A DNA stretch of 64,000 nt, taken from assembly GCF_000196895.1 (NCBI RefSeq), contig NC_014297.1, forward strand, positions 1,846,295-1,910,294, given 5' to 3'. Of this stretch, positions 30,396 to 56,783 are shown piece after piece. Numbering within the stretch: position 1 is the first letter of the stretch; each line of letters begins with the position of its first letter. Position numbers and translations under genes: made by a program. The DNA is from Halalkalicoccus jeotgali B3. Its GTDB lineage: Archaea; Halobacteriota; Halobacteria; Halobacteriales; Halalkalicoccaceae. Below the pieces are notes generated by a model. The model searched no databases, was not told the DNA's origin, and worked only from the letters and a program-made list of their open reading frames with translations.

Positions 30396-31433
30396 TCAGG
30401 GGACGATGACCGCCCGGCCCTCGATTTCGCCCTCTTCGAGCGCCGCCGCGACATCGTTGATCTCCTCGATGGGGTACTGTGTGGTCTCGAGGTGCATCTC
30501 CCCCTGCTCGACCAGCGAGACGAGCTCCTGGAGCTCGGTGTACTTCCCGACGATGTTCCCGACGAAGGAGAACTCCCCGTTGACCAGTGCCTGGGCGGGT
30601 TCATGGATGTGTCCGCCGTAGCCGATGATGTGGTGATCGCCCCCCGGTGCGACGATCTCAGGGGCCAGCGCCGTGGTCTGATCCGCGCCGACGAAGTCGA
30701 GCACCTGCTCTGCGCCCGCGCCGTCGGTGATCCCCGCAATCGCCTCGGCGACGTCCTCGTCGGCGGAGTTGATCGTGTGGTCCGCCCCGAGCCGATCCGC
30801 AAGCGAGAGGGCCTCGTCTTTGACGTCGACGGCGATGGTCGTGCTCGCACTCATCGCCTCCACCGCTTGGAGACCGATGTGGCCCAGCCCGCCGATCCCG
30901 ATCACGACCGTGTAGCTCCCCGGAAACAGGTTCGGGGTCGCCTTCTTGACCGCGTGATACGCGGTGATCCCGGCGTCGGCGTGGGGCGCGATCTCGACGG
31001 GATCGACCGAATCGAGTTTGATCGCCGCGCGTTCGGAGGTCAGCAGGTACTCCGCGAACCCGCCGTCGACGTTCAGGCCGGGAAACGAGGCGTTCTCGCA
31101 GTGCATGTCCTCGCCGAGCCGACAGGCCCGACACTCCCCGCAGGTCACGTGGGGATGACAGATCACCTTATCGCCGACCTCCACGGTCGTCACCTCCTCG
31201 CCGATCTCCACTACTTCCCCGGCGTTCTCGTGGCCGAGCGTCATCGGCAGGTCCTGTTCGACGTAGTCGGTCCACATCCCCTCGATAATGTGGTTGTCCG
31301 TCTGGCACCACCCGGCCCCCTCGACCTCGATCACGACGTGATCCGAGCGGGTCGGCTCGGGCCGCTCTACCTCGTCGATCGAGAGCGCCTCGCCCATCTC
31401 CTCGGTGTAGTCGTGGAGTCTCGCGGCGTCCAT
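30396..31433 (-). CDS. adh: Zinc-dependent NAD(P) alcohol dehydrogenase
   Basis: 345 residues of the medium-chain dehydrogenase family. Catalytic zinc ligands are Cys43 (GWCQTDN) and His68/Glu69 (GHENAG). Structural zinc is held by Cys98, Cys101, Cys104 and Cys112. The nucleotide motif is VVIGIGGLGHIG near 175. It oxidises primary or secondary alcohols. The divergent neighbours are an amidohydrolase and a DUF59 protein; this trio accompanies propane monooxygenase operons in actinobacteria, where the dehydrogenase handles the product alcohol. No monooxygenase is seen here. Confidence 0.93.
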   Translation of the reverse strand: MDAARLHDYTEEMGEALSIDEVERPEPTRSDHVVIEVEGAGWCQTDNHIIEGMWTDYVEQDLPMTLGHENAGEVVEIGEEVTTVEVGDKVICHPHVTCGECRACRLGEDMHCENASFPGLNVDGGFAEYLLTSERAAIKLDSVDPVEIAPHADAGITAYHAVKKATPNLFPGSYTVVIGIGGLGHIGLQAVEAMSASTTIAVDVKDEALSLADRLGADHTINSADEDVAEAIAGITDGAGAEQVLDFVGADQTTALAPEIVAPGGDHHIIGYGGHIHEPAQALVNGEFSFVGNIVGKYTELQELVSLVEQGEMHLETTQYPIEEINDVAAALEEGEIEGRAVIVP

Positions 31434-31545
31434 AATACGGCTCGATACTCGACTGATACCGACAAAAAGATTGTGTACAAGGCAGTCCGGGCGGACCGCC
31501 GGTGTGCGAAATTATAATGATAGTGCGTCCGTAGTTGCTACTGGT

Positions 31546-32604
31546 ATGTACACATATGACGGTGAAGACGTGTTCGTGCTCGACGGGCACGTCCACTGGT
31601 GGGACGCGAGCAAGGAGAACATCAAACACGAAGGTGGCGAGCAGTTCATCCGCTGTTTCTACGACTATCACACCGGTTTCACCCCCGAGGAGCGCCAGTG
31701 GAGTCTAGAGGAGTATCGCAAGTACGATAAAGACCGGATGGTCCGGGACATGTTCGGCGACGGCCACGCCGACATGGGGCTCCTTCAACCCACGTATCTC
31801 AACGAGTTCTATACGGAGGGCTTTAACACGATCGACCGGTGTGCGCAACTCGCCGAGGACCACCCCTCGCGGTTCATCGTCAACGGGCGATTCGATCCCC
31901 GCGAGGGCGAGGCGGGCCTGAAGGAACTCGAACGCCAGGCCGAGGAGTTCGACGTTCGGGGCGCGAAGGTCTACACCGCCGAGTGGCGCGGCGACTCGAA
32001 GGGGTGGCGACTCGATTCGGAGGAGAGCTTCGAGTACCTCGAGAAGTGTGCCGAACTCGGGATCAAGAACATCCACGCCCACAAGGGGCCGACCATCAGG
32101 CCGCTGAACCGCGACGCCTTCGACGTGGCCGACATCGACGACGCGGCGACCTCCTTTCCCGAACTCAACTTCGTCGTCGAACACATCGGGCTGCCCCGGC
32201 TGGACGACTTCTGCTGGATCGCCGCCCAGGAGCCAAACGTCTACGGTGGGCTGGCGGTCGCCGCCCCGCTCGCAGAGAGCCGCCCGCGGAAGTTCGGCGA
32301 GATCATGGGCGAGTTGCTCTTCTGGCTCGGGGAAGACCGCATCCTCTTCGGCAGCGACTACGCGATCTGGGAACCGGAGTGGCTGATCGAGGCGGTGATG
32401 GAAGCCGAGATGACGCCCGAACAGCGCGAGGAGTTCGGCGTCGAACTCGACCTCGAGGTCAAAAAGAAGATCATGGGCGAGAACGCCGCCCGGCTGTATG
32501 ACATCGACATCGAGCGCCAGAAGGAGATCCTGCGCGGGGACGGCGTCAGCGAGGAGTTCGGACTCGAAGAGCAGTACGCCCGGACCGCGAGCGCGGACGA
32601 CTGA
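31546..32604 (+). CDS. Amidohydrolase-2 family metal-dependent hydrolase
   Basis: 352 residues with a TIM-barrel amidohydrolase pattern. GHVHWWD gives His15 and His17 as metal ligands, IHAHKG near 182 gives a third histidine, VEHIGLPR near 215 a fourth, and LFGSDYAIW near 270 the catalytic aspartate. The protein is read from an ATG at 31546; a longer open frame exists but is not TATA-compatible. The gene for a DUF59 protein starts 3 bases after its stop, and adh is divergent. In actinobacterial propane or acetone monooxygenase loci an equivalent amidohydrolase is needed for monooxygenase activity, perhaps in metal-cofactor maturation; here its client is unknown. Confidence 0.9.
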   Translation: MYTYDGEDVFVLDGHVHWWDASKENIKHEGGEQFIRCFYDYHTGFTPEERQWSLEEYRKYDKDRMVRDMFGDGHADMGLLQPTYLNEFYTEGFNTIDRCAQLAEDHPSRFIVNGRFDPREGEAGLKELERQAEEFDVRGAKVYTAEWRGDSKGWRLDSEESFEYLEKCAELGIKNIHAHKGPTIRPLNRDAFDVADIDDAATSFPELNFVVEHIGLPRLDDFCWIAAQEPNVYGGLAVAAPLAESRPRKFGEIMGELLFWLGEDRILFGSDYAIWEPEWLIEAVMEAEMTPEQREEFGVELDLEVKKKIMGENAARLYDIDIERQKEILRGDGVSEEFGLEEQYARTASADD

Positions 32605-32606
32605 CC

Positions 32607-33356
32607 ATGAGCGAGAGCCAGCGGATCAGCCCCGAAACGATCGAGGAGCGTCTCGAAGCGGTGACCGATCCCGAACTCGACCGCTCGATCGTCGAGCTGG
32701 ACTATATAGTGGACATCGAGATCGAGGGCGGGTCGGTCGAGGTCGGGTTCGTCCTGCCGACCGCGTGGTGCTCGCCGGCGTTCGCGTGGATGATGATGGC
32801 CGACGCCCGCGAGGCCCTCGCCGACCATCCCGCGATTTCGGACGCGACCGTCCGCCTGGACGAGCACATGCACGCAGCGGAGATCAACGAGGGGGTAAAC
32901 GGAGGGCTCGCCTTCGGGGAAGCCTTCGAGGACGCCGACGGCGAGGTCGAGGCCGTCCGCCGCGAACTCGACGGGAAGGCCCGCGTTGCACGCCAGTACC
33001 GAGCGACGGAGACCCTTCTGGAGGGCGGGCTGAAACCCGATCAGATCGCACGGCTTCGCCGCGAGGACCTCTCGATCGACGCCGAGGCGGGGCGGGCGAC
33101 GGTGCGGGTGAACGCGACGCTGTCGGTCTGTGTCGACTCCCAGCCGCTCGAAGACTACCTCGAGAAAGCACTCACGACGGACGTCGCCGACGCACCGGAA
33201 AAACGGCTGTTCGCCACGCCGGAGGGCGAGGCCATCGCCCCCGAGGAGTTCGAGACGGTCCATCGGCGGGGCCGGCTGGCGACGACGAACATGAGCGGGC
33301 AGGGCCACGTCTGTGAGAGCCTCGGGGCGTCGCGGATCGGCTCGCAAAGCGACTGA
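32607..33356 (+). CDS. DUF59/MIP18-family protein with extra C-terminal domain
   Basis: 249 residues. The first 100 hold the MIP18/PaaD-like fold: EERLEAVTDPELDRSIVELDYI at 13-34 and VGFVLPTAWCSPAFAWMM (with Cys55) near 45-62, the cysteine region used in iron-sulfur cluster work. The second half (about 130-245) has no clear family; it has Cys173 and Cys231 with LATTNMSGQGHVCE near the end. Three bases separate it from the amidohydrolase, so both are certainly one operon. An iron-related maturation role is inferred from the family and from monooxygenase-linked relatives. Confidence 0.85.
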   Translation: MSESQRISPETIEERLEAVTDPELDRSIVELDYIVDIEIEGGSVEVGFVLPTAWCSPAFAWMMMADAREALADHPAISDATVRLDEHMHAAEINEGVNGGLAFGEAFEDADGEVEAVRRELDGKARVARQYRATETLLEGGLKPDQIARLRREDLSIDAEAGRATVRVNATLSVCVDSQPLEDYLEKALTTDVADAPEKRLFATPEGEAIAPEEFETVHRRGRLATTNMSGQGHVCESLGASRIGSQSD

Positions 33357-48604: not shown

Positions 48605-50293
48605 ATGGCTGACAGCGATCCGAACTCGCTTCAACAGGACGTATTCTACGCCGATACCGATCACGAACCGGGCGATGACAACGTCCAAAAGTGGGGGTTC
48701 GACGTTCACCCGGTCGTGTTCGGCGTCTCAGCCGGGTTGATCCTGCTGTTCGTCGTACTGACCCTACTGTTCTAGGAACAGGCGGCGGCGGCGTTCGCAC
48801 AGACCCAGGCCGGCATCGCCGAGTACATGGGCTGGTTCTACATCCTCTGTGCGAACGTGTTCATCGGGGTCGTGTTGTACTTCGGTCTCGGGAAGTACGG
48901 AAACATCCGGATCGGCGGCCCGACCCAGGAACCGGAGTTCAGCGATTTCTCCTGGCTGGCCATGCTCTTCAGCGCGGGCATGGGGATCGGACTCATGTTC
49001 TGGAGCGTCGGTGAGCCGATCTGGCACTACAGCGCACCGCCCTTCGGCGAGGCCGAAACGGCCGCGGCAGCCGAGACGTCAATGGTCGCGACGTATTATC
49101 ACTGGGGAATTCACCCGTGGGCGATCTACGGGCTGGTGGCGCTCGGACTGGCGTTTTATGCCTACAATCGGGGGTTGCCCCTGACGTTTCGCTCGCTCTT
49201 TTGGCCCCTGCTCGGCGAGCGGATCTACGATTGGCCGGGCCACCTCGTCGACACCCTCGCCGTCTTCGCGACGGTGTTCGGCCTCGCGACGTCGCTTGGG
49301 TTGGGTGCCGGTCAGATCAACGCCGGCCTCAACATCGTCTCCGGGCAGTACCTCGGCACCGCCGTCCCCGTCGGGACGACCGTTCAAGTGGTTCTCATCG
49401 CGGTCATCACGTCCTTCGCGGTCGTGTCGGTCTGGGCCGGGTTGGACAAGGGGGTCCGCCGACTGAGCCAGCTGAACGTCTACCTCATGTTTACCTTGCT
49501 CGGGGTGATCGTGATCATCGGTCCGACGCTCTTTATCTTCGATACGTTCGTCCAGACGCTTGGCTCGTACCTCAATCGGCTCCCTGAACTGGCGTTCTGG
49601 ACCGCGAGCTACGAGGGCGGGAGCGGCGGGTGGCAGGCCAGTTGGACCATCTTCTACTGGGGCTGGTGGATCGCGTGGTCGCCGTTCGTCGGGATGTTCA
49701 TCGCCCGGATTTCGAAGGGACGGACCGTCCGCGAGTTCGTCCTCGCCGTCCTGTTGTTGCCGGCGCTGTTTTCGTTTATCTGGATGTCGGCGTTCGGCGG
49801 CACGGCCTTGCACTTCGAGCTGTTTACCCAGTCGTCGATCATCGAGGCTGTTCAGGCCGACGAGGCGGTCGCGATGTTCGAACTGTTCGCGCTGTTACCG
49901 CTGACGCTCGTGCTTTCTGCGGTCGCCATGGTCCTCGTCGTCTCCTTTTTCGTCACCTCCTCTGATTCGGGCTCGCTGGTGTTGGGCAGTATCACCGCCG
50001 GCGGACAGGACGACGCCACCCGGAACCTGCGGGTCTCGTGGGCCGTCTTCGAGGGGATTTTGGCCGCCGTGTTGCTCATCGGTGGCGGGTTGGGAGCGCT
50101 CCAGACCGCCTCGATCGCGACCGGACTTCCCTTTGCCTTCGTGTTGCTGTTCATCTGTTATACCCTCTGGGTCGGGCTCGCAAGCGAGTATCGCCTCCTG
50201 CAGTCTCGCGAGGTCGAACGGCGGATCCGCAGTATGGACGACGACGTGCTACCGGAATCGATGTCGGGGCCCTCACCGACCGACGATGACTGA
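48605..50293 (+). pseudogene. BCCT-family betaine transporter interrupted by an in-frame TAG
   Basis: A betaine/carnitine/choline transporter gene of 562 sense codons with one amber codon at position 57 (48773-48775). The reading frame starts with ATG at 48605 (MADSDPNSLQQDVFY), enters the first membrane helix (PVVFGVSAGLILLFVV), stops in LTLLF-TAG-EQAAAAF, and continues intact to 50293. CAG (Gln) would be expected there, so a single C-to-T change explains it. The rest has the family features, including the Trp-rich FYWGWWIAWSPFVGMFIARIS segment. An ATG at 48827 (GWFYILCANVF preceding helix 2) could start a truncated product missing helix 1. Mutation, sequencing error or suppression are possible. 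Confidence 0.75.
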
Positions 50294-50313
50294 GGCCGAC
50301 TGCCGATCGGCCT

Positions 50314-51540
50314 TTAGCGAGCGTTGACGACCTCGACGGTGTATCCGTGGTCCTCGATCGTTTCCGTGATCGCTCGCGAGTGACTCGCCCCGCTTGTTTC
50401 GATCCGGAAGACGAGGTAGGCCTCGCCGACGTCCAGATCCTCGACCGCGCGCTCGTGGCGCACCGTTCGGATGTTGGCGTCGTGTTCGGAAAGCAGCGTC
50501 GAGATATCGGCCATCCGGCCCGGAACGTCGTCGATGCGCACCCGCAGGTGCACCAGCTGCCGGCGGTCGGTCAGCGCGTGGACGAGGACGGTCCGGAGCA
50601 TCGTCATGTCGAGGTTCCCGCCACACAGAAGCGGCATGACGGTTTCGCCACGCACGTCGAGGTCCCCCGAGAGCATCGCCGCGACCCCGGCCGCACCCGC
50701 CCCTTCGACGAGCTGCTTGGCGCGTTCGAGCAACAACAGGACCGCGCGCGCGATCTGGCCGTCCGAGACCGTAACGATCTCGTCGACGTGTGTTTCGATG
50801 AGCCCCAGTGTGAGATCGGAGACCCCGCCGGTGGCGATCCCGTCGGCGATGGTGTCGACCGCCTCCAGCGTCTGAGGAGCCCCCTTATCGAGGCTCTCGG
50901 GGACGGTCGCGGCCTTCTGTGCTTGGACGCCGACGATCCGGACCTCGGGCGCGAGTTCCGAGAACGCAAGCGAGATCCCCGAAATCAGCCCGCCCCCGCC
51001 GATGGGGACGATCACGGTGTCGACGGCGGGGCAGTCCTCGACCATCTCCACTCCCAGCGTACCTTGCCCGGCGACGATGTCGGGGTCGTCATAGGCGTGG
51101 ACGAACGTCGAATCGCCGCCGGCGGCGAGCTCCTGCGCGTGGGCCATCGCTGCCTGGAAGTCCTTTCCGTGGAGCTCGACCGTCGCGCCGTAGCCGCGGG
51201 TCGCGTCGATCTTCGTCTGGGGGGCGGTCTTCGGCATAACGATCGTCGAGTCTACTCCGAGAGTGCTCGCCGCCAGCGCGACCCCCTGGGCGTGATTGCC
51301 CGCGCTGGCGGCGACCGCGTGTTCGACCTCGTCCGCGGCGACCGCCTGCGAGAGCTTGTTGTACGCCCCGCGCGTCTTGAACGAGCCCGTCCATTGGAGG
51401 TGTTCCATCTTCAGGTGGACATCGGCGTCGACCATCCCCCCGAGGGAGGTGCTTCGTTCGACGGGCGTTCGCTTGACCACGCTCTCGTCGTCGAGGCGGT
51501 CCCCGGCGGCCTCGATGTCCGCGAAGCTGACACCCACCAT
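50314..51540 (-). CDS. ilvA: Threonine/serine ammonia-lyase with C-terminal ACT domain
   Basis: 408 residues. The PLP lysine is Lys55 in TGSFKTRGAYNK, and the PLP-phosphate loop is VPIGGGGLISG near 180. The C-terminal ACT domain starts at about residue 325 (LVHLRVRIDDVPGRMADI) and would give allosteric control as in catabolic TdcB/IlvA types. The start codon shares one base with the stop of the dimethylglycine oxidase gene (TGATG), so they are one operon. Acting on serine made from glycine would let betaine carbon reach pyruvate, an inference. Confidence 0.92.
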   Translation of the reverse strand: MVGVSFADIEAAGDRLDDESVVKRTPVERSTSLGGMVDADVHLKMEHLQWTGSFKTRGAYNKLSQAVAADEVEHAVAASAGNHAQGVALAASTLGVDSTIVMPKTAPQTKIDATRGYGATVELHGKDFQAAMAHAQELAAGGDSTFVHAYDDPDIVAGQGTLGVEMVEDCPAVDTVIVPIGGGGLISGISLAFSELAPEVRIVGVQAQKAATVPESLDKGAPQTLEAVDTIADGIATGGVSDLTLGLIETHVDEIVTVSDGQIARAVLLLLERAKQLVEGAGAAGVAAMLSGDLDVRGETVMPLLCGGNLDMTMLRTVLVHALTDRRQLVHLRVRIDDVPGRMADISTLLSEHDANIRTVRHERAVEDLDVGEAYLVFRIETSGASHSRAITETIEDHGYTVEVVNAR

Positions 51541-54035
51541 CAGCGGATGATCTTCTCCCGGTCGGAATCGAACAGCGGCTCCTCGGCGACCGTCACGGGG
51601 TAGCGCTTGCCCTCGAACTCGGTTTCGAGGGCGACGCCAGCCTCCGCGTACTCGGGTGGGAGGTAGCCGTAGGCGATACCGGCGTCGATGCTGTAGCCGT
51701 AGTCTGCGGCCTTCACGTGGCCGAGGACCTCCTCGCCGTCGAGGATCGGCGTGCCGCCGTCGACGATCTCACCGTCCCTATCGAACGTCATCGGGACGAT
51801 CTCGCGGTCGAGATCCGTCTCTCTCGCCTCGACGAGCGCATCCCGCCCGATGAAGTCGGTATCAGTATCGACCGCGAAGCCGATCCCCGCCTCGTCGGGG
51901 TCGTGTTCGGGCGTGAGGTCGGTCCCCCACAGCCGGTAGCCCTTCTCCAATCGAAGGGACCCGAGGAAGGCGCCGTTGCCGAGCGCGACCATGTCGTGTT
52001 CTCTTCCCTGTTCCCAGATGAGGTCCCAGAGCCGCCCGCCGTACTCGGTGGGCGCGTACAGCTCCCAGCCCAGTTCGCCGACATACGAGACCCGCAGTGC
52101 GAGGACGGGGATGGAATCGATGTAGAACTCCTTGGCGCGGAAGTAGCCGAAGGCGTCGTTCGAGAGATCCTCCTCGGTCAGCGGCTGGAGCACCTCCCGC
52201 GCGTTGGGTCCCCAGACGCCCAGTCCACACTGATCGGAGACGTGGGCGTCGATCCGCACGTCGTCGGGCGCGTGCTCGCGGATCCAGCGGGTGTGCTCGG
52301 TCGCCGACGCGCCGCCACCGGTCGTTGCCACGAAGCGGTTCTCGCCCAGCCGGGTGACCGCCATGTCCGCCAGCACCCCGCCGTCGTGATCGAGCATCGG
52401 GCTGTAGCGCACCTGGCCGACCGAGCTGTCGAGGTCGTTCGCGAACAGGTGCTGGACGCAATCGAGCGCCCCCTCGCCGGTGATCTCGATTCCCGTGTAC
52501 CGCGAGAGGTCGTAGATCCCGACGCCGTCTCGAACGGCCTGGTGTTCGGCCCCCTGAATGGGCGACCAGCCCTGCGAGAGCCAACCCGACCGGTCGGGCA
52601 CGTCGTACTCCTCGAGTAGGGACTCATTATCGCCGTACCACTGGGGGACCTCCCAGCCACCCGCCTCGAAGAACTCGGCCCCGAGTGCCTTCTGGCGTTC
52701 GTAGAAGGGGCTGCGGCGCAGGCCGCGCTGCTCGACGGGCTGTTCGTTCGGGTGGAGCAGCTGGTAGACCTCCTGGTACTGCTGGCCGCCGCGGGCGTAC
52801 GAAAAGGCCCGGCTACCCGAATGGGGCTGGAACCGCTCGATGTGCGCCCCGCTGATGTCGACCTTCGTGCCATCCAATCGGGGAACGCCCTCGTCCATCA
52901 ACGAGGCGACGACGCTGCCGACACCGCCCGATTGGGTCACCCAGACCGCAAGCGCCCACCACAGCCCGTCGATATCCTCCGTCTCGCCGAGGATCGGCAT
53001 TCCGTCCGGCGTAAAGGAGAACATCCCGTTGAACGCGCGCTCGAACCCGACCTCGTCGAAGGCGGGGACGAGTTCGCGGGCGGCGTCGTAGGCGGATTTG
53101 TCGATGTCCGGGTGGGTCGGCTCGTAGAAGTGTTCCTCGGTGAACTCCCGGATCGAGGGCATCTCCTCGGCCTCCTCGGGCGCGCGGATGTCCTCGGGGT
53201 CCACCAGGAGAGGCTCGTGATCGTACGAGCCGATCCCGTACGAGTCGCCGTGCTGGCGGAAATAGAGGGAATAATCTTGGTGGCGCAGGATCGGCTGTTC
53301 GAGCTCCTCGCTCGCGCCCGCGAGTTTCTCCATGGGTTCGCTCACGAGGTACTGGTGGGCACAGGGGACCAGGGGAACGTCGACGCCGACCATCTCGCCG
53401 AACAGCGGCCCCCAGATGTTCGTCGCCACGAGCACCTCCTCCGCTTCGATGCGCCCGTTGTCGGTGACGACCGCTTCGACTCCGTCACTACCGGTCTCGA
53501 CGTCGGTGACGGTGGTGTGGCCGTAGAACTCCGCGGCACCCCTATCCTCGGCCGCGTGGGCCATCGCCGCCGAGGCATCGACCGCGTGAGCCTTGCCGTC
53601 ACTCGGAACGTAGTAGCCGCCGTGGATAACCGAGGAATCGATCTGCGGGATCTCCGCGGCGACCTCGTCGGGTGAGAGCAGCTCGCCACCCTCGACCCCC
53701 CACGAGCGGCCGTATTCGCGCTTTCGCTGCAGGTAGTCCCACCGTTCCTCGGTGTAGGCGACCTCGATACCGCCACAGTCGGCGAAGCTATCGAGGTCGC
53801 CGTAGAGGTCGACGGTGTACTGTGCGAGCCGGCTCATCAGTTCGTTCTCGGTCGTCTGAAAGACCAGTCCCGGGGCGTGGGAGGTCGATCCGCCCGTCTC
53901 GAAGAGGGGCCCCTGGTCGACGACGACGATTTCCTCGCGGCCCTGCTCGGCGAGGTGGTAGGCGGTGCTACAGCCGACGCAGCCGGCTCCGATGATGACG
54001 GTTTCGGCACTCCGTGGGAGCGTCTCGGCGCTCAT
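51540..54035 (-). CDS. Dimethylglycine oxidase/dehydrogenase-like flavoprotein with GcvT domains
   Basis: 831 residues. The N-terminal DAO domain starts with VIIGAGCVGCSTAYHLAE (Gly motif at 16-21). His53 in GGSTSHAPGLVFQ matches the histidine bearing covalent FAD in Arthrobacter dimethylglycine oxidase. A FAO-M linker domain precedes the GcvT aminomethyltransferase domains (about 440-720 and 730-825), which bind folate and trap the methyl group as methylene-tetrahydrofolate. It converts dimethylglycine (or sarcosine) to the next demethylated amine. The IclR gene is 49 bases upstream on the same strand. Confidence 0.92.
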   Translation of the reverse strand: MSAETLPRSAETVIIGAGCVGCSTAYHLAEQGREEIVVVDQGPLFETGGSTSHAPGLVFQTTENELMSRLAQYTVDLYGDLDSFADCGGIEVAYTEERWDYLQRKREYGRSWGVEGGELLSPDEVAAEIPQIDSSVIHGGYYVPSDGKAHAVDASAAMAHAAEDRGAAEFYGHTTVTDVETGSDGVEAVVTDNGRIEAEEVLVATNIWGPLFGEMVGVDVPLVPCAHQYLVSEPMEKLAGASEELEQPILRHQDYSLYFRQHGDSYGIGSYDHEPLLVDPEDIRAPEEAEEMPSIREFTEEHFYEPTHPDIDKSAYDAARELVPAFDEVGFERAFNGMFSFTPDGMPILGETEDIDGLWWALAVWVTQSGGVGSVVASLMDEGVPRLDGTKVDISGAHIERFQPHSGSRAFSYARGGQQYQEVYQLLHPNEQPVEQRGLRRSPFYERQKALGAEFFEAGGWEVPQWYGDNESLLEEYDVPDRSGWLSQGWSPIQGAEHQAVRDGVGIYDLSRYTGIEITGEGALDCVQHLFANDLDSSVGQVRYSPMLDHDGGVLADMAVTRLGENRFVATTGGGASATEHTRWIREHAPDDVRIDAHVSDQCGLGVWGPNAREVLQPLTEEDLSNDAFGYFRAKEFYIDSIPVLALRVSYVGELGWELYAPTEYGGRLWDLIWEQGREHDMVALGNGAFLGSLRLEKGYRLWGTDLTPEHDPDEAGIGFAVDTDTDFIGRDALVEARETDLDREIVPMTFDRDGEIVDGGTPILDGEEVLGHVKAADYGYSIDAGIAYGYLPPEYAEAGVALETEFEGKRYPVTVAEEPLFDSDREKIIR

Positions 54036-54084
54036 ATGCACTGTGGTCGTCCCACCAGCACATTAAGTGTCACGGTCACACGGC

Positions 54085-54897
54085 TCACGACCGTGGCTCG
54101 GTTCCGTTCCCGGCGAGTTCGCGTTCGAGGTCGCGGGCGGTCTCGACGACGAGTTCGGCGGCCGCCGTCTCGAGGCCCTCGCTCTCGCGCCGATAGGTCG
54201 GAACGGACATACCCAGTGCTCCCAGGGGCGACCCGTCGGGGTTCGCAACGACGACCCCGACCGCACACAAGCCGTCGACGTACTCCTCGTCCGCGACCGC
54301 GTACCCGCGCTCGCGCGTGCGGTCGAGATCGGCGGCGAGCGCCTCCCGGTCGGTGATCGTATTCGCCGTGCGCGCGGGCAGTCCCCAGCGATCGAGGACG
54401 GCTTCGATGCGCTCGTCGGGCAACGCCGCGAGCAGCGCCTTCCCGGCTGCCGTACAGTGCATGTGGTAGTACGTCCCCGAGTGCGAGAGGTCGCTGCTCG
54501 ACGTGACGAGGTCCTCCCGATAGCTGTTCTGGGGATGGTACGACTCGTAGACCGTGATCGTCCGCCCGTCGTTTTCGACGACGAAATCGGCCTCCTCGTC
54601 GGTTCGCTCCGCGAGCTCCCGGACCGCGCGGCCGGCCAGCCGATAGCCCCGCTTTCGCAGGCGGGCGTACTCGCCGTGGTGATGGAACTTCAGCCCAATA
54701 TGATATCGTTCGCCCTCCTTTTCGAGATAACCGTGCGAGGCGAGGGTTCTCAGGTGCTTGTAGACGGTGCTCTTCGCGAGGCCGAACTCCGCGACGAGTT
54801 CCGCAAGCGTCGCCCCATCCCGGCGTTGGATCGCCTCCACGATGGCGAACGACCGCTCGGTCGTCCGCACCCCGTCAGGCACGTGGTCCGTTGACAT
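54085..54897 (-). CDS. IclR-family transcriptional regulator
   Basis: 270 residues. The winged helix (about 12-65) has RSFAIVEAIQRRDGATLAELVAEF split by the recognition helix KSTVYKHLRTLASHGYLEKE. The effector domain follows, with YHMHCTAAGKALLAALPDER near 140-160 and DEEYVDGLCAVGVVV, the conserved ligand-pocket segment. It heads an operon with the dimethylglycine oxidase and the dehydratase. A perfect 22-base palindrome lies between it and the divergent Rieske gene. The natural effector may be betaine or dimethylglycine. Confidence 0.92.
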   Translation of the reverse strand: MSTDHVPDGVRTTERSFAIVEAIQRRDGATLAELVAEFGLAKSTVYKHLRTLASHGYLEKEGERYHIGLKFHHHGEYARLRKRGYRLAGRAVRELAERTDEEADFVVENDGRTITVYESYHPQNSYREDLVTSSSDLSHSGTYYHMHCTAAGKALLAALPDERIEAVLDRWGLPARTANTITDREALAADLDRTRERGYAVADEEYVDGLCAVGVVVANPDGSPLGALGMSVPTYRRESEGLETAAAELVVETARDLERELAGNGTEPRS

Positions 54898-55085
54898 ACG
54901 ACTCGATGCACGCCCAGAGTATAAAATGGTTCGGGCGTGTCGAACCGGTTCCTCCGGACCGGCGTTCGGACCCCGAATCCGGACGCGTCGGTTGTCCCGC
55001 GTTTCGTTCGCCGGTTCGATATAGCCGAACGACTCGGGCGTTCCCGCCCCGACCGCCCCCGTCCCGCGTCCGTGACGGGCAGAAG

Positions 55086-55107
55086 ATTACACCAGTACTG
55101 GTGTAAT
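55086..55107. promoter_or_regulatory. Perfect 22-base palindrome, candidate IclR operator
   Basis: The 11 bases ATTACACCAGT are followed at once by their exact reverse complement ACTGGTGTAAT. Symmetry over 22 bases is very unlikely by chance in a GC-rich genome. It lies 189 bases upstream of the IclR start and about 150 bases upstream of the Rieske start, in the divergent control region. A dimeric IclR protein is the best candidate to bind it. Confidence 0.65.
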
Positions 55108-55259
55108 TATCCCTGTCGGCACCGGACGAGCGTCGACGAAGCGCCGCGAGACGGCGCGATTCGGTTCGGCTCAACGAAACCACGGTCGTTTCACGGAATC
55201 GTGAGGGTCGGTATCGTGCCACCAACTTTTTTATGCACCGCCGGTGTACTGAGGAGCAC

Positions 55260-56397
55260 ATGACGCGGTGGAACGACGGGACCGACGCGACCGCGTCGGT
55301 CAGCCCCGACATAACCGAGGAGACGAACGCACTACCGGCCAGATACTTCACCGACCCGGCGGTCCACGAGATGGAGAAGGAGAAAAATCTTCTCCAGATA
55401 CTGGATGTACGCGGGCCACGCGACCACCATCGAGGAGCCCGGCGATTACTTCACCCGTACGATCGGTGGCAAGCAGATCGTCATCGTTCGCGATAAGGAC
55501 CGCGAGATACGGGCCTTTTACAACGTCTGTGCTCACCGCGGGTCGAAGATGGTCGAGGACACGCCGATGACCGACCCGGGCAACACGAACGGGATCCGGT
55601 GTCCGTACCACCTCTGGACGTACGATCTCGACGGGCGGCTCCGGAGCACACCCCAGAGCTTCGAGACGGCAGGGATGAACCGCGACCTCGAGGACGAGGA
55701 CGTCCCCGAACTCGACCCGAAGCGAAACGGGTTGATGGAGGTACACCTCGATTCGATCGGCCCGCTCGTGTTCGTCAACTTCGCGGACGATCCGGCCCCC
55801 CTCGCCGAACAGGCCGGCACGCTGAAAGAAGAACTCGAGTCGTTCCCGCTCGAGGAGTACGAACTGGCCCGCCGCTACGTCTCGGAGGTCGAGTGCAACT
55901 GGAAGACGTTCAGTGGAAATTATTCGGAGTGCGATCACTGTCAGGCCAACCATCAGGACTGGATCAAAGGGATCTCGCTCGCTGAATCCGAACTCGTCGT
56001 CGACGACCACTACTGGGTGTTGCATTACACTCACGACGAGGGCGTCGAGGCCGACGAGGCGCTGGTCGAGGGCGAGGCCCGGTTTTACTACTTCTGGCCG
56101 AACTTCACGCTTAACATGTACGGCAACGCCGACGGCTACGGCACTTACATCATCGATCCCATCGACGAGGGGCGCTTCCAGTTGATCGCGGACTACTACT
56201 TCAGGGACGAGGAGTTGAGCGACGAGGAAGCGGAGTTCGTCCAGTTGAGCCGCAAGCTCCAGGAGGAGGACTTCGAGCTCGTCGAACGGCAGTACGAGGG
56301 GCTGAAATCGGGTGCGCTCGCACAGGGGCAACTGGGGCCGAACGAACACACCGTCCACCGCCTCCACCGCCTCGCACAGGAGGCCTACGAGGCCTGA
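55260..56397 (+). pseudogene. Rieske ring-hydroxylating oxygenase alpha subunit (GbcA-like), frameshifted
   Basis: The N-terminus is read from ATG at 55260, preceded by GAGGAG, as MTRWNDGTDATASVSPDITE and on to HEMEKEKN. The rest of the oxygenase continues in the next frame from 55387. Removing one A from the run at 55383-55387 restores EKIFSRYWMYAGHAT. The Rieske centre is CAHRG (Cys/His) with CPYHLW, and the iron site has CDHCQANHQD. Family and context suggest glycine betaine monooxygenase, giving dimethylglycine and formaldehyde. An internal ATG at 55405 would give a protein missing about 48 residues. The cause may be mutation or an assembly error in the homopolymer. Confidence 0.8.
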
Positions 56398-56399
56398 GG

Positions 56400-56783
56400 A
56401 TGAGCGACCGGGACCGGGATCGGCAGTCGTTCGTCGTCTGCGAGGCGTGTGACGTCACGAAGGCGGTCGAGGACCCCAACGACGCGGTGTCCTTCTACCG
56501 GCGTCATCACTCGATCACCGCCCACGATGTCGAGTGGGGGTGGGCCGACTTCAAGGGGCTCGACGCCGGTAGATCGGACGAGGACCTCGTCTCGGTGATC
56601 GCCGGGCTCGAAGAGCGCTTCGCAGAGGGCGTGCCGCTGGGCCTCCTCAGCGCGGCGATGGCGGACCGGGGCCGAACCGTCGGCGAGACGCTGGCGGCGG
56701 TCCGGTCGCTCCGCCTGGAGGGCGAACTGTACGAACCGCGCGACGACCACGTCCGACTCACTCGATCGCCGACCCGAGCGTGA
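56400..56783 (+). CDS. Uncharacterised zinc-site/winged-helix-like protein downstream of Rieske gene
   Basis: 127 residues, two bases after the Rieske stop, so translationally coupled. The N-terminal part has VCEACDVTKAVEDP (CxxC at Cys14/Cys17) and YRRHHSITAHDVEW with several histidines, a possible zinc site. The second half, GVPLGLLSAAMADRGRTVGE and RSLRLEGELYEPRDDHV, resembles a winged helix with wing. No family is recognised. It may be a regulator, an oxygenase assembly factor or an electron-transfer accessory. Confidence 0.75.
   Translation: MSDRDRDRQSFVVCEACDVTKAVEDPNDAVSFYRRHHSITAHDVEWGWADFKGLDAGRSDEDLVSVIAGLEERFAEGVPLGLLSAAMADRGRTVGETLAAVRSLRLEGELYEPRDDHVRLTRSPTRA

Follow-up and report, generated by a model that had tools for sequence, protein, structure and literature searches.

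The window analysed here, a stretch of 64,000 nucleotides from the haloarchaeon Halalkalicoccus jeotgali B3 (NC_014297.1, positions 1,846,295 to 1,910,294), carries at 30396-33356 a confirmed trio of genes for a zinc alcohol dehydrogenase (ADH), an Amidohydro_2 protein (AH) and a DUF59 protein. The same three families occur with the same adjacency in group V soluble diiron monooxygenase (SDIMO) operons (prm of Gordonia TY-5, mim of Mycobacterium). We find that the genes for AH and the DUF59 protein go together almost without exception in haloarchaea, Chloroflexota, Bacillota and Proteobacteria, and that this extends to deep paralogues of AH and to SDIMO-free genomes. ADH usually completes the set, and the same AH-DUF59-ADH unit lies within SDIMO operons from Proteobacteria and Actinobacteria. 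Because DUF59 adjoins AH in haloarchaea, bacteria, Chloroflexota, and 12 of 13 deep paralogues, we conclude that it is the partner of AH rather than of the SDIMO. The gene set was already known; what is described here is an SDIMO-independent unit, a reassigned partner for the DUF59 protein, and a proposed fold for its C-terminal half.

The trio in haloarchaea

The initial annotation described the trio as lacking a monooxygenase, which holds for the window and beyond: no hydroxylase is encoded there, and a profile search of the whole source genome (3.70 Mb, 98.6% complete) for the PF02332 hydroxylase found none. The same profile matched 0 of 14 control genomes, and did match SDIMO-bearing bacteria and three haloarchaea. 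Across the 392 genomes of the order, AH matches at 1e-10 were present in 142 and close ones (58% identity or more) in 112; an SDIMO was found in three, with no overlap with the 112. A sample of 294 genomes from the phylum gave 13 matches at 1e-20, all 13 within the same order. Between families of the order, AH sequences share about 70% identity.

We examined 30 other close haloarchaeal loci (28 spanning 15-20 kb, plus one of 12 kb and one of 20 kb from the same genus), counting adjacency by tblastn; protein BLAST missed several DUF59 genes left uncalled by a simple gene finder. AH and DUF59 adjoin in all 30, and ADH stands beside the pair in 26, divergently in 23 and co-directionally in three. 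ADH identity across these 26 loci is 58-91%, and the next ADH in the source genome reaches at most 33%. Given this constancy of the pair and the retention of ADH at 26 loci, chance grouping can be dismissed, as can the concern of the initial annotation that adh might not be conserved next to the other two genes. When AH neighbourhoods were compared for a diiron hydroxylase, none of the haloarchaeal loci used for the AH tree matched an SDIMO subunit. Set against group V SDIMO operons, the haloarchaeal trio is without hydroxylase, reductase and coupling protein, its adh is usually divergent, and its genomes are SDIMO-free. Two haloarchaeal loci, L055 and L057, have a co-directional AH-DUF59-ADH order like the mycobacterial layout in the available text of PMC6849523.

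A genuine haloarchaeal SDIMO hydroxylase cluster was observed in L074, L075 and L076 (G127, G351 and G215), accompanied by an apparent Rieske ferredoxin, a small subunit and regulators, as judged by eye, with no trio member alongside.

The coordinates of the trio are given in Table 1. The divergent orientation of adh had been read correctly, and the stretch between it and the AH gene is partly conserved within the genus (MAFFT, five intergenic stretches). AH and DUF59 had been placed 3 bases apart; they are indeed adjacent, with two bases between the AH stop and the DUF59 ATG. A 377-residue AH call from a TTG at 31471 is probably too long, and was rejected because homologues begin at the position of the ATG at 31546. 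Elsewhere in the window, positions 48827-56783 hold, by eye, genes for a transporter, an FAD/GcvT-like oxidoreductase, a regulator and a Rieske-type oxygenase, and resemble a betaine or methylated-amine catabolic region.

Table 1. Features of the trio locus, in window positions.
Feature	Position	Strand	Description
ADH	30396..31433	-	345 aa; zinc-dependent medium-chain alcohol dehydrogenase; Pfam ADH_N (4.7e-28) / ADH_zinc_N
Intergenic region, adh and AH gene (divergent)	31434..31545		112-bp gap; presumed to hold the promoters of both
AH	31546..32604	+	352 aa; TIM-barrel, Amidohydro_2/ACMSD type; PF04909 7.3e-51
DUF59 protein	32607-33356	+	249 aa
DUF59/MIP18-like N-terminal domain (about residues 1-111)	32607..32940	+	PF01883 5.6e-15, conservation, fold match
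C-terminal domain of DUF59 protein (residues 112-249)	32941..33356	+	predicted tyrosine-recombinase-like fold over 124-231

Bacterial relatives, deep paralogues and the AH tree

A plasmid search returned full-length AH relatives in bacteria at 48-59% identity. The parallel first drawn with bacterial propane and acetone monooxygenase operons is right, because the window AH is 55-59% identical to SDIMO-operon amidohydrolases of Rhodococcus, Paracoccus and Caballeronia; the window ADH is 43-49% identical to the ADHs of bacterial SDIMO operons. In Caballeronia and Paracoccus, the AH gene comes immediately after the SDIMO genes, DUF59 and GroEL come next, and ADH is close by.

DUF59 adjoins AH in 85 of 86 bacterial loci, the exception (L111) being a contig that ends after AH. 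SDIMO genes lie within 68 of these loci and are absent from 17, the contig of L165 being too short to judge. Eight of the 14 genomes behind SDIMO-free bacterial loci are without any PF02332, and the other six carry an SDIMO elsewhere; for the Thermomicrobium megaplasmid, too, the SDIMO is away from the AH locus. Among Chloroflexota, 25 of 201 genomes match AH at 1e-40, and AH, DUF59 and ADH occur together in 17 of 17 close loci (two on short contigs); PF02332 is absent from 15 of those 17 genomes, and in G468 an SDIMO lies ~11 kb from the trio. The presence of the pair without PF02332 in haloarchaea, most of these Chloroflexota and eight of the 14 bacteria speaks against the suggestion of the initial annotation that it matures a diiron enzyme. 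That interpretation is therefore supported only in its other parts, the trio parallel and the occurrence without a hydroxylase, and independent processing of an alcohol is the better half of its guess.

On a plasmid of Rhodococcus aetherivorans BW2 (L081:6579-8937), the reading frame of an SDIMO alpha subunit overlaps that of a truncated dehydrogenase immediately upstream of AH, as though the other monooxygenase genes had been deleted and the accessory genes and GroEL spared.

The pairing extends to more distant proteins. Of 13 deep AH paralogues, 27-35% identical by tblastn, all but one (L069, without a trusted DUF59) have an adjacent DUF59 gene on the same strand, and the five DUF59 proteins translated are of a short form, 132-149 aa, that is without the C-terminal half. 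The paralogue neighbourhoods contain, by eye, aldehyde dehydrogenase and short-chain dehydrogenase/reductase (SDR) genes, and that of L077 a 2-oxo-acid dehydrogenase E1, a lipoyl/hydrolase protein and a zinc ADH. Because deep paralogues keep their own DUF59, the association of AH with DUF59 reaches beyond the SDIMO link and probably predates it. Haloarchaea have a further amidohydrolase-DUF59 pair, which (L055:2044-3551, L072:9405-10888, L073:9489-11018, L077:8982-10481, AH 27-29% identical and a short DUF59) lies near aldehyde dehydrogenase, SDR and apparent tungsten-type aldehyde oxidoreductase genes, again as judged by eye.

In a maximum-likelihood tree of 82 AH sequences (147 before removal of those more than 88% identical), the 23 haloarchaeal trio sequences formed one clade (99/97), sister to the 48 bacterial sequences (96/82). 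The SDIMO-linked sequences were nested among SDIMO-free Chloroflexota and Bacillota lineages in the best tree, which also left the haloarchaea out of a 31-sequence proteobacterial clade (99/84). The initial annotation tied the trio to monooxygenase-associated clades; the best tree puts the haloarchaeal AH outside these, and so argues against its SDIMO-linked origin, but the approximately unbiased (AU) test is indecisive, being compatible with a grouping of haloarchaea and the SDIMO-linked proteobacterial clade (p 0.237). With this result, and with an outgroup set apart by long branches, a derived SDIMO link in the history of AH is the best reading of the sequences, short of proof.

Predicted structures of the paired proteins

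The AH model (pLDDT 88.1) is a TIM barrel whose best fold match is the uncharacterised 3irs (Z 27.1, 270 aligned, 2.9 A), followed by ACMSD-type structures at Z 19-23, the decarboxylases among these at Z 22-23. Amidohydro_2 proteins are marked by an HxH motif on beta1, His on beta5 and beta6, and Asp after beta8, and AH fits this pattern. By DSSP of the model, the candidate ligands are H15 and H17 (beta1), K141 (beta4), H179 (beta5), H213 (beta6) and D271 (after beta8); their roles are assigned from the amidohydrolase superfamily, in which this His/Lys/Asp set is the textbook two-metal site bridged by a carboxylated lysine. Every one of the 31 haloarchaeal and 99 other trio-type sequences has all six; H177 is kept in 30 of the 31, and K141 is invariant in all 147 sequences. 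On the model, AH is probably an enzyme that binds two metals in its TIM barrel, with K141 as the bridge. No sequence match of AH to a characterised member was better than 7e-3, and a bridge to the PDB through a 30% paralogue gave no match.

In the DUF59 protein the match to PF01883 (FeS_assembly_P) covers residues 10-82 only. The N-terminal half of its model (pLDDT 91.4) resembles CIAO2B (Z 11.1, 108 aligned, 3.2 A), and the domain shares DPE and TxWC motifs, as well as the fold (Z 11), with MIP18/CIAO2B, SufT and PaaD. It differs from these proteins in its genomic partner, an amidohydrolase, and in an extra ~137-residue recombinase-like domain with a conserved Cys. Across 133 sequences D21, P22, E23, L24, T52 and C55 are invariant (motifs DPEL and T52-x-W-C55), H87 is conserved at 95% or more and C236 at 99% or more. 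The two cysteines noticed at the outset in the C-terminal half are both there, Cys175 and Cys236; only the latter is conserved, and a cysteine pair was ruled out because Cys175 is variable.

Structure prediction of that previously unassigned half points to a tyrosine-recombinase-like fold without the catalytic Arg-I. Residues 124-231 resemble the catalytic domains of Cre, XerA, XerD and XerH (Z 8.9-10.1 by VIA-align in the best rows; 94-102 residues, 2.7-3.9 A), with Cre at Z 10.1 (99 aligned, 3.5 A), XerA at 9.7 (94, 3.0 A) and XerD at 9.2 (99, 2.9 A). Profile similarity is weak: hhalign to six integrases of the source genome gave, over the matching region, P 4e-4 and a probability of 33% with the haloarchaeal set, and P 1.7e-3 and 15% with the full set, against P 0.36-0.97 for five shuffled profiles. 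Unlike Cre and XerD, the window protein has Lys at the Arg-I position (other residues in bacterial sequences), no match to the Pfam integrase family PF00589, and a fusion to DUF59. From fold and profile together, the domain is likely related to tyrosine recombinases, and the protein may be a rare reuse of the recombinase fold outside DNA chemistry.

Proposed function and its alternatives

The structural relatives of ADH, 1h2b (E 4.5e-103), which we take to be the Aeropyrum ADH, and Rhodococcus secondary ADH-A 2xaa (4.6e-61), together with its family, fit a zinc medium-chain dehydrogenase/reductase of the secondary-alcohol type. We suggest, as a proposition on which we are evenly divided, that the trio is an autonomous secondary-alcohol/ketone module in which the DUF59 protein loads metal into AH, and for which we infer both substrate and chemistry. 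ADH would oxidise a short secondary alcohol (such as 2-propanol) or vicinal diol (such as 1,2-propanediol), and AH would convert the resulting ketone or hydroxyketone. The DUF59 protein would be a dedicated metallation partner, handing metal, likely iron, to AH through Cys55 of the MIP18-like domain, and probably also through Cys236 of the dead recombinase-like domain. Within SDIMO operons the module would act downstream of alkane hydroxylation; in haloarchaea it may take alcohols or ketones directly.

Some of the bacterial neighbourhoods are consistent with such chemistry. The SDIMO-free Bacilli loci of one AH type (L083, L148, L156 and L163) have, besides DUF59, a DJ-1/PfpI gene in four of four, and two of the four have a diacid-type regulator and GlcD/GlcF-like genes; the SDIMO-free locus of Rhizobium N324 has GloA and a D-2-hydroxyacid dehydrogenase. 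These C3-carbonyl neighbours resemble a verrucomicrobial gene cluster for which the published sections available describe a route from 2-propanol through acetone, acetol and methylglyoxal to lactate (PMC8630023, PMC12235487). In Gordonia and Mycobacterium the printed layout is amidohydrolase, unknown protein, ADH and GroEL, and in Mycobacterium sp. AT1 GroEL alone of these is found with the monooxygenase, the other three genes being elsewhere in the genome (PMC6849523), an arrangement that, as far as the available text goes, is the trio moving as a unit. A relative-abundance table for an actinobacterium on acetone and 2-hydroxyisobutyrate gives 3.2 for the amidohydrolase-like protein and 3.8 for MimC (PMC7176365; unit taken as percent of the proteome), so by that table AH is abundant like an enzyme. 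The factor named in the accessible parts of two papers as needed for active monooxygenase is the GroEL-like MimG (PMC6849523, PMC7570240). Depictions of propane-monooxygenase operons have included amidohydrolase and DUF59 genes since the 2000s, with function unassigned, according to the papers that cite this work in the text available. Literature searches found no paper joining propane monooxygenase, amidohydrolase and DUF59, none on prmABCD with amidohydrolase, alcohol dehydrogenase and chaperonin, and nothing relevant for amidohydrolase with DUF59.

Several observations weigh against the module, or against its extension to all pairs, the AU result among them. ADH is absent at four of the 30 haloarchaeal loci. 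Beyond the trio no neighbour is conserved across haloarchaeal genera in these loci (exceptions among recurrent neighbours being IclR-like regulators in four loci and an antisense DUF59 frame, taken as spurious), and therefore the pathway is not fixed by context there. Among the fold neighbours of AH, decarboxylases and hydrolases without redox chemistry predominate. All 13 paralogues are without H15 and D271, but with H17, K141, H179 and H213, and the four Bacilli variants with DJ-1 have lost H17, the second His of HxH, so that one chemistry shared by all pairs is doubtful. The bacterial scan took one genome per species; of its 569 confirmed relatives the best 80, mostly Proteobacteria, were kept, and Actinobacteria are represented in the sample by one locus. 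The acetol-oxidising enzyme of Methylocella is given as a GMC oxidoreductase, rather than AH-DUF59, in the text available (PMC7364539).

Other explanations account for parts of these data. AH could be an ordinary mononuclear-metal hydrolase or decarboxylase of ACMSD type, with ADH acting on its product and the DUF59 protein serving an unrelated Fe-S need; its best characterised fold neighbours are decarboxylases, and H15, H17, H179 or H177, and D271 would suffice for a mononuclear site. We consider this unlikely, as characterised members match poorly by sequence, K141 sits on beta4 without exception, and the DUF59 partner is nearly constant. There is less still to recommend the view that the pair plays an accessory role, maturing a metalloenzyme (diiron or other) whose gene lies elsewhere, AH not being the enzyme itself. 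The DUF59 relatives MIP18 and PaaD are maturation factors, and SDIMO operons hold the pair in most of the bacterial loci; yet the pair occurs in many genomes without PF02332, and deep paralogues keep DUF59 with no SDIMO in the locus. The published record divides in the same way, with a figure legend that marks both genes in SDIMO operons (PMC9213486), but with AH as abundant as the hydroxylase subunit (PMC7176365) and MimG as the maturation factor named in print (PMC6849523, PMC7570240). A relic of an acquired SDIMO operon that lost its hydroxylase would explain why all three haloarchaeal genes are homologous to SDIMO-operon genes, and the AU test permits a sister relation; we reject it as very improbable because of conservation, AH having diverged little across families, been kept in 112 of 392 genomes and retained every candidate ligand in 31 of 31 sequences, and because the SDIMO-linked sequences are the nested ones in the best tree.

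A bolder form of the autonomous-module proposal, to which we give a slim chance, is that AH, with a DUF59 protein fused to a dead recombinase-like domain as its maturation factor, represents a new enzyme class. By analogy with AibH2 (PMC10401708), it would use the amidohydrolase fold and a dinuclear centre (Fe/Fe or Mn/Fe) to activate oxygen, acting on short ketones or alpha-hydroxyketones. AibH2 and PtmU3, dinuclear monooxygenases of the amidohydrolase fold, share with AH the Amidohydro_2 fold and a multi-ligand metal site, in AH a set of six candidate ligands, and haloarchaea are among the carriers of AibH2-like proteins, in the sections of that paper available. AibH2-like genes adjoin a small Rieske protein in 90% of cases (PMC10401708), a place taken by DUF59 beside AH; in the 30 loci no Rieske gene is conserved next to AH, and only AH, DUF59 and ADH recur across genera. 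A direct AH-AibH2 relation was sought by sequence profile and by fold, and AibH2/PtmU3 surfaced neither among the profile matches nor among the 50 fold matches listed, which excludes no relation. If the proposal were true, ADH and the pair would oxidise 2-propanol or 1,2-propanediol without any SDIMO, and the pair could be the acetol-cleaving activity (acetol monooxygenase) of mycobacteria. That activity was reportedly described in the 1980s, and we know of no gene assigned to it.

The question shifts from help for an SDIMO to an enzyme that has a maturation partner of its own, because the unit occurs SDIMO-free in haloarchaea, Chloroflexota and Bacillota and the pairing recurs in deep paralogues. 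A haloarchaeon with the trio and without an SDIMO is a clean genetic system.

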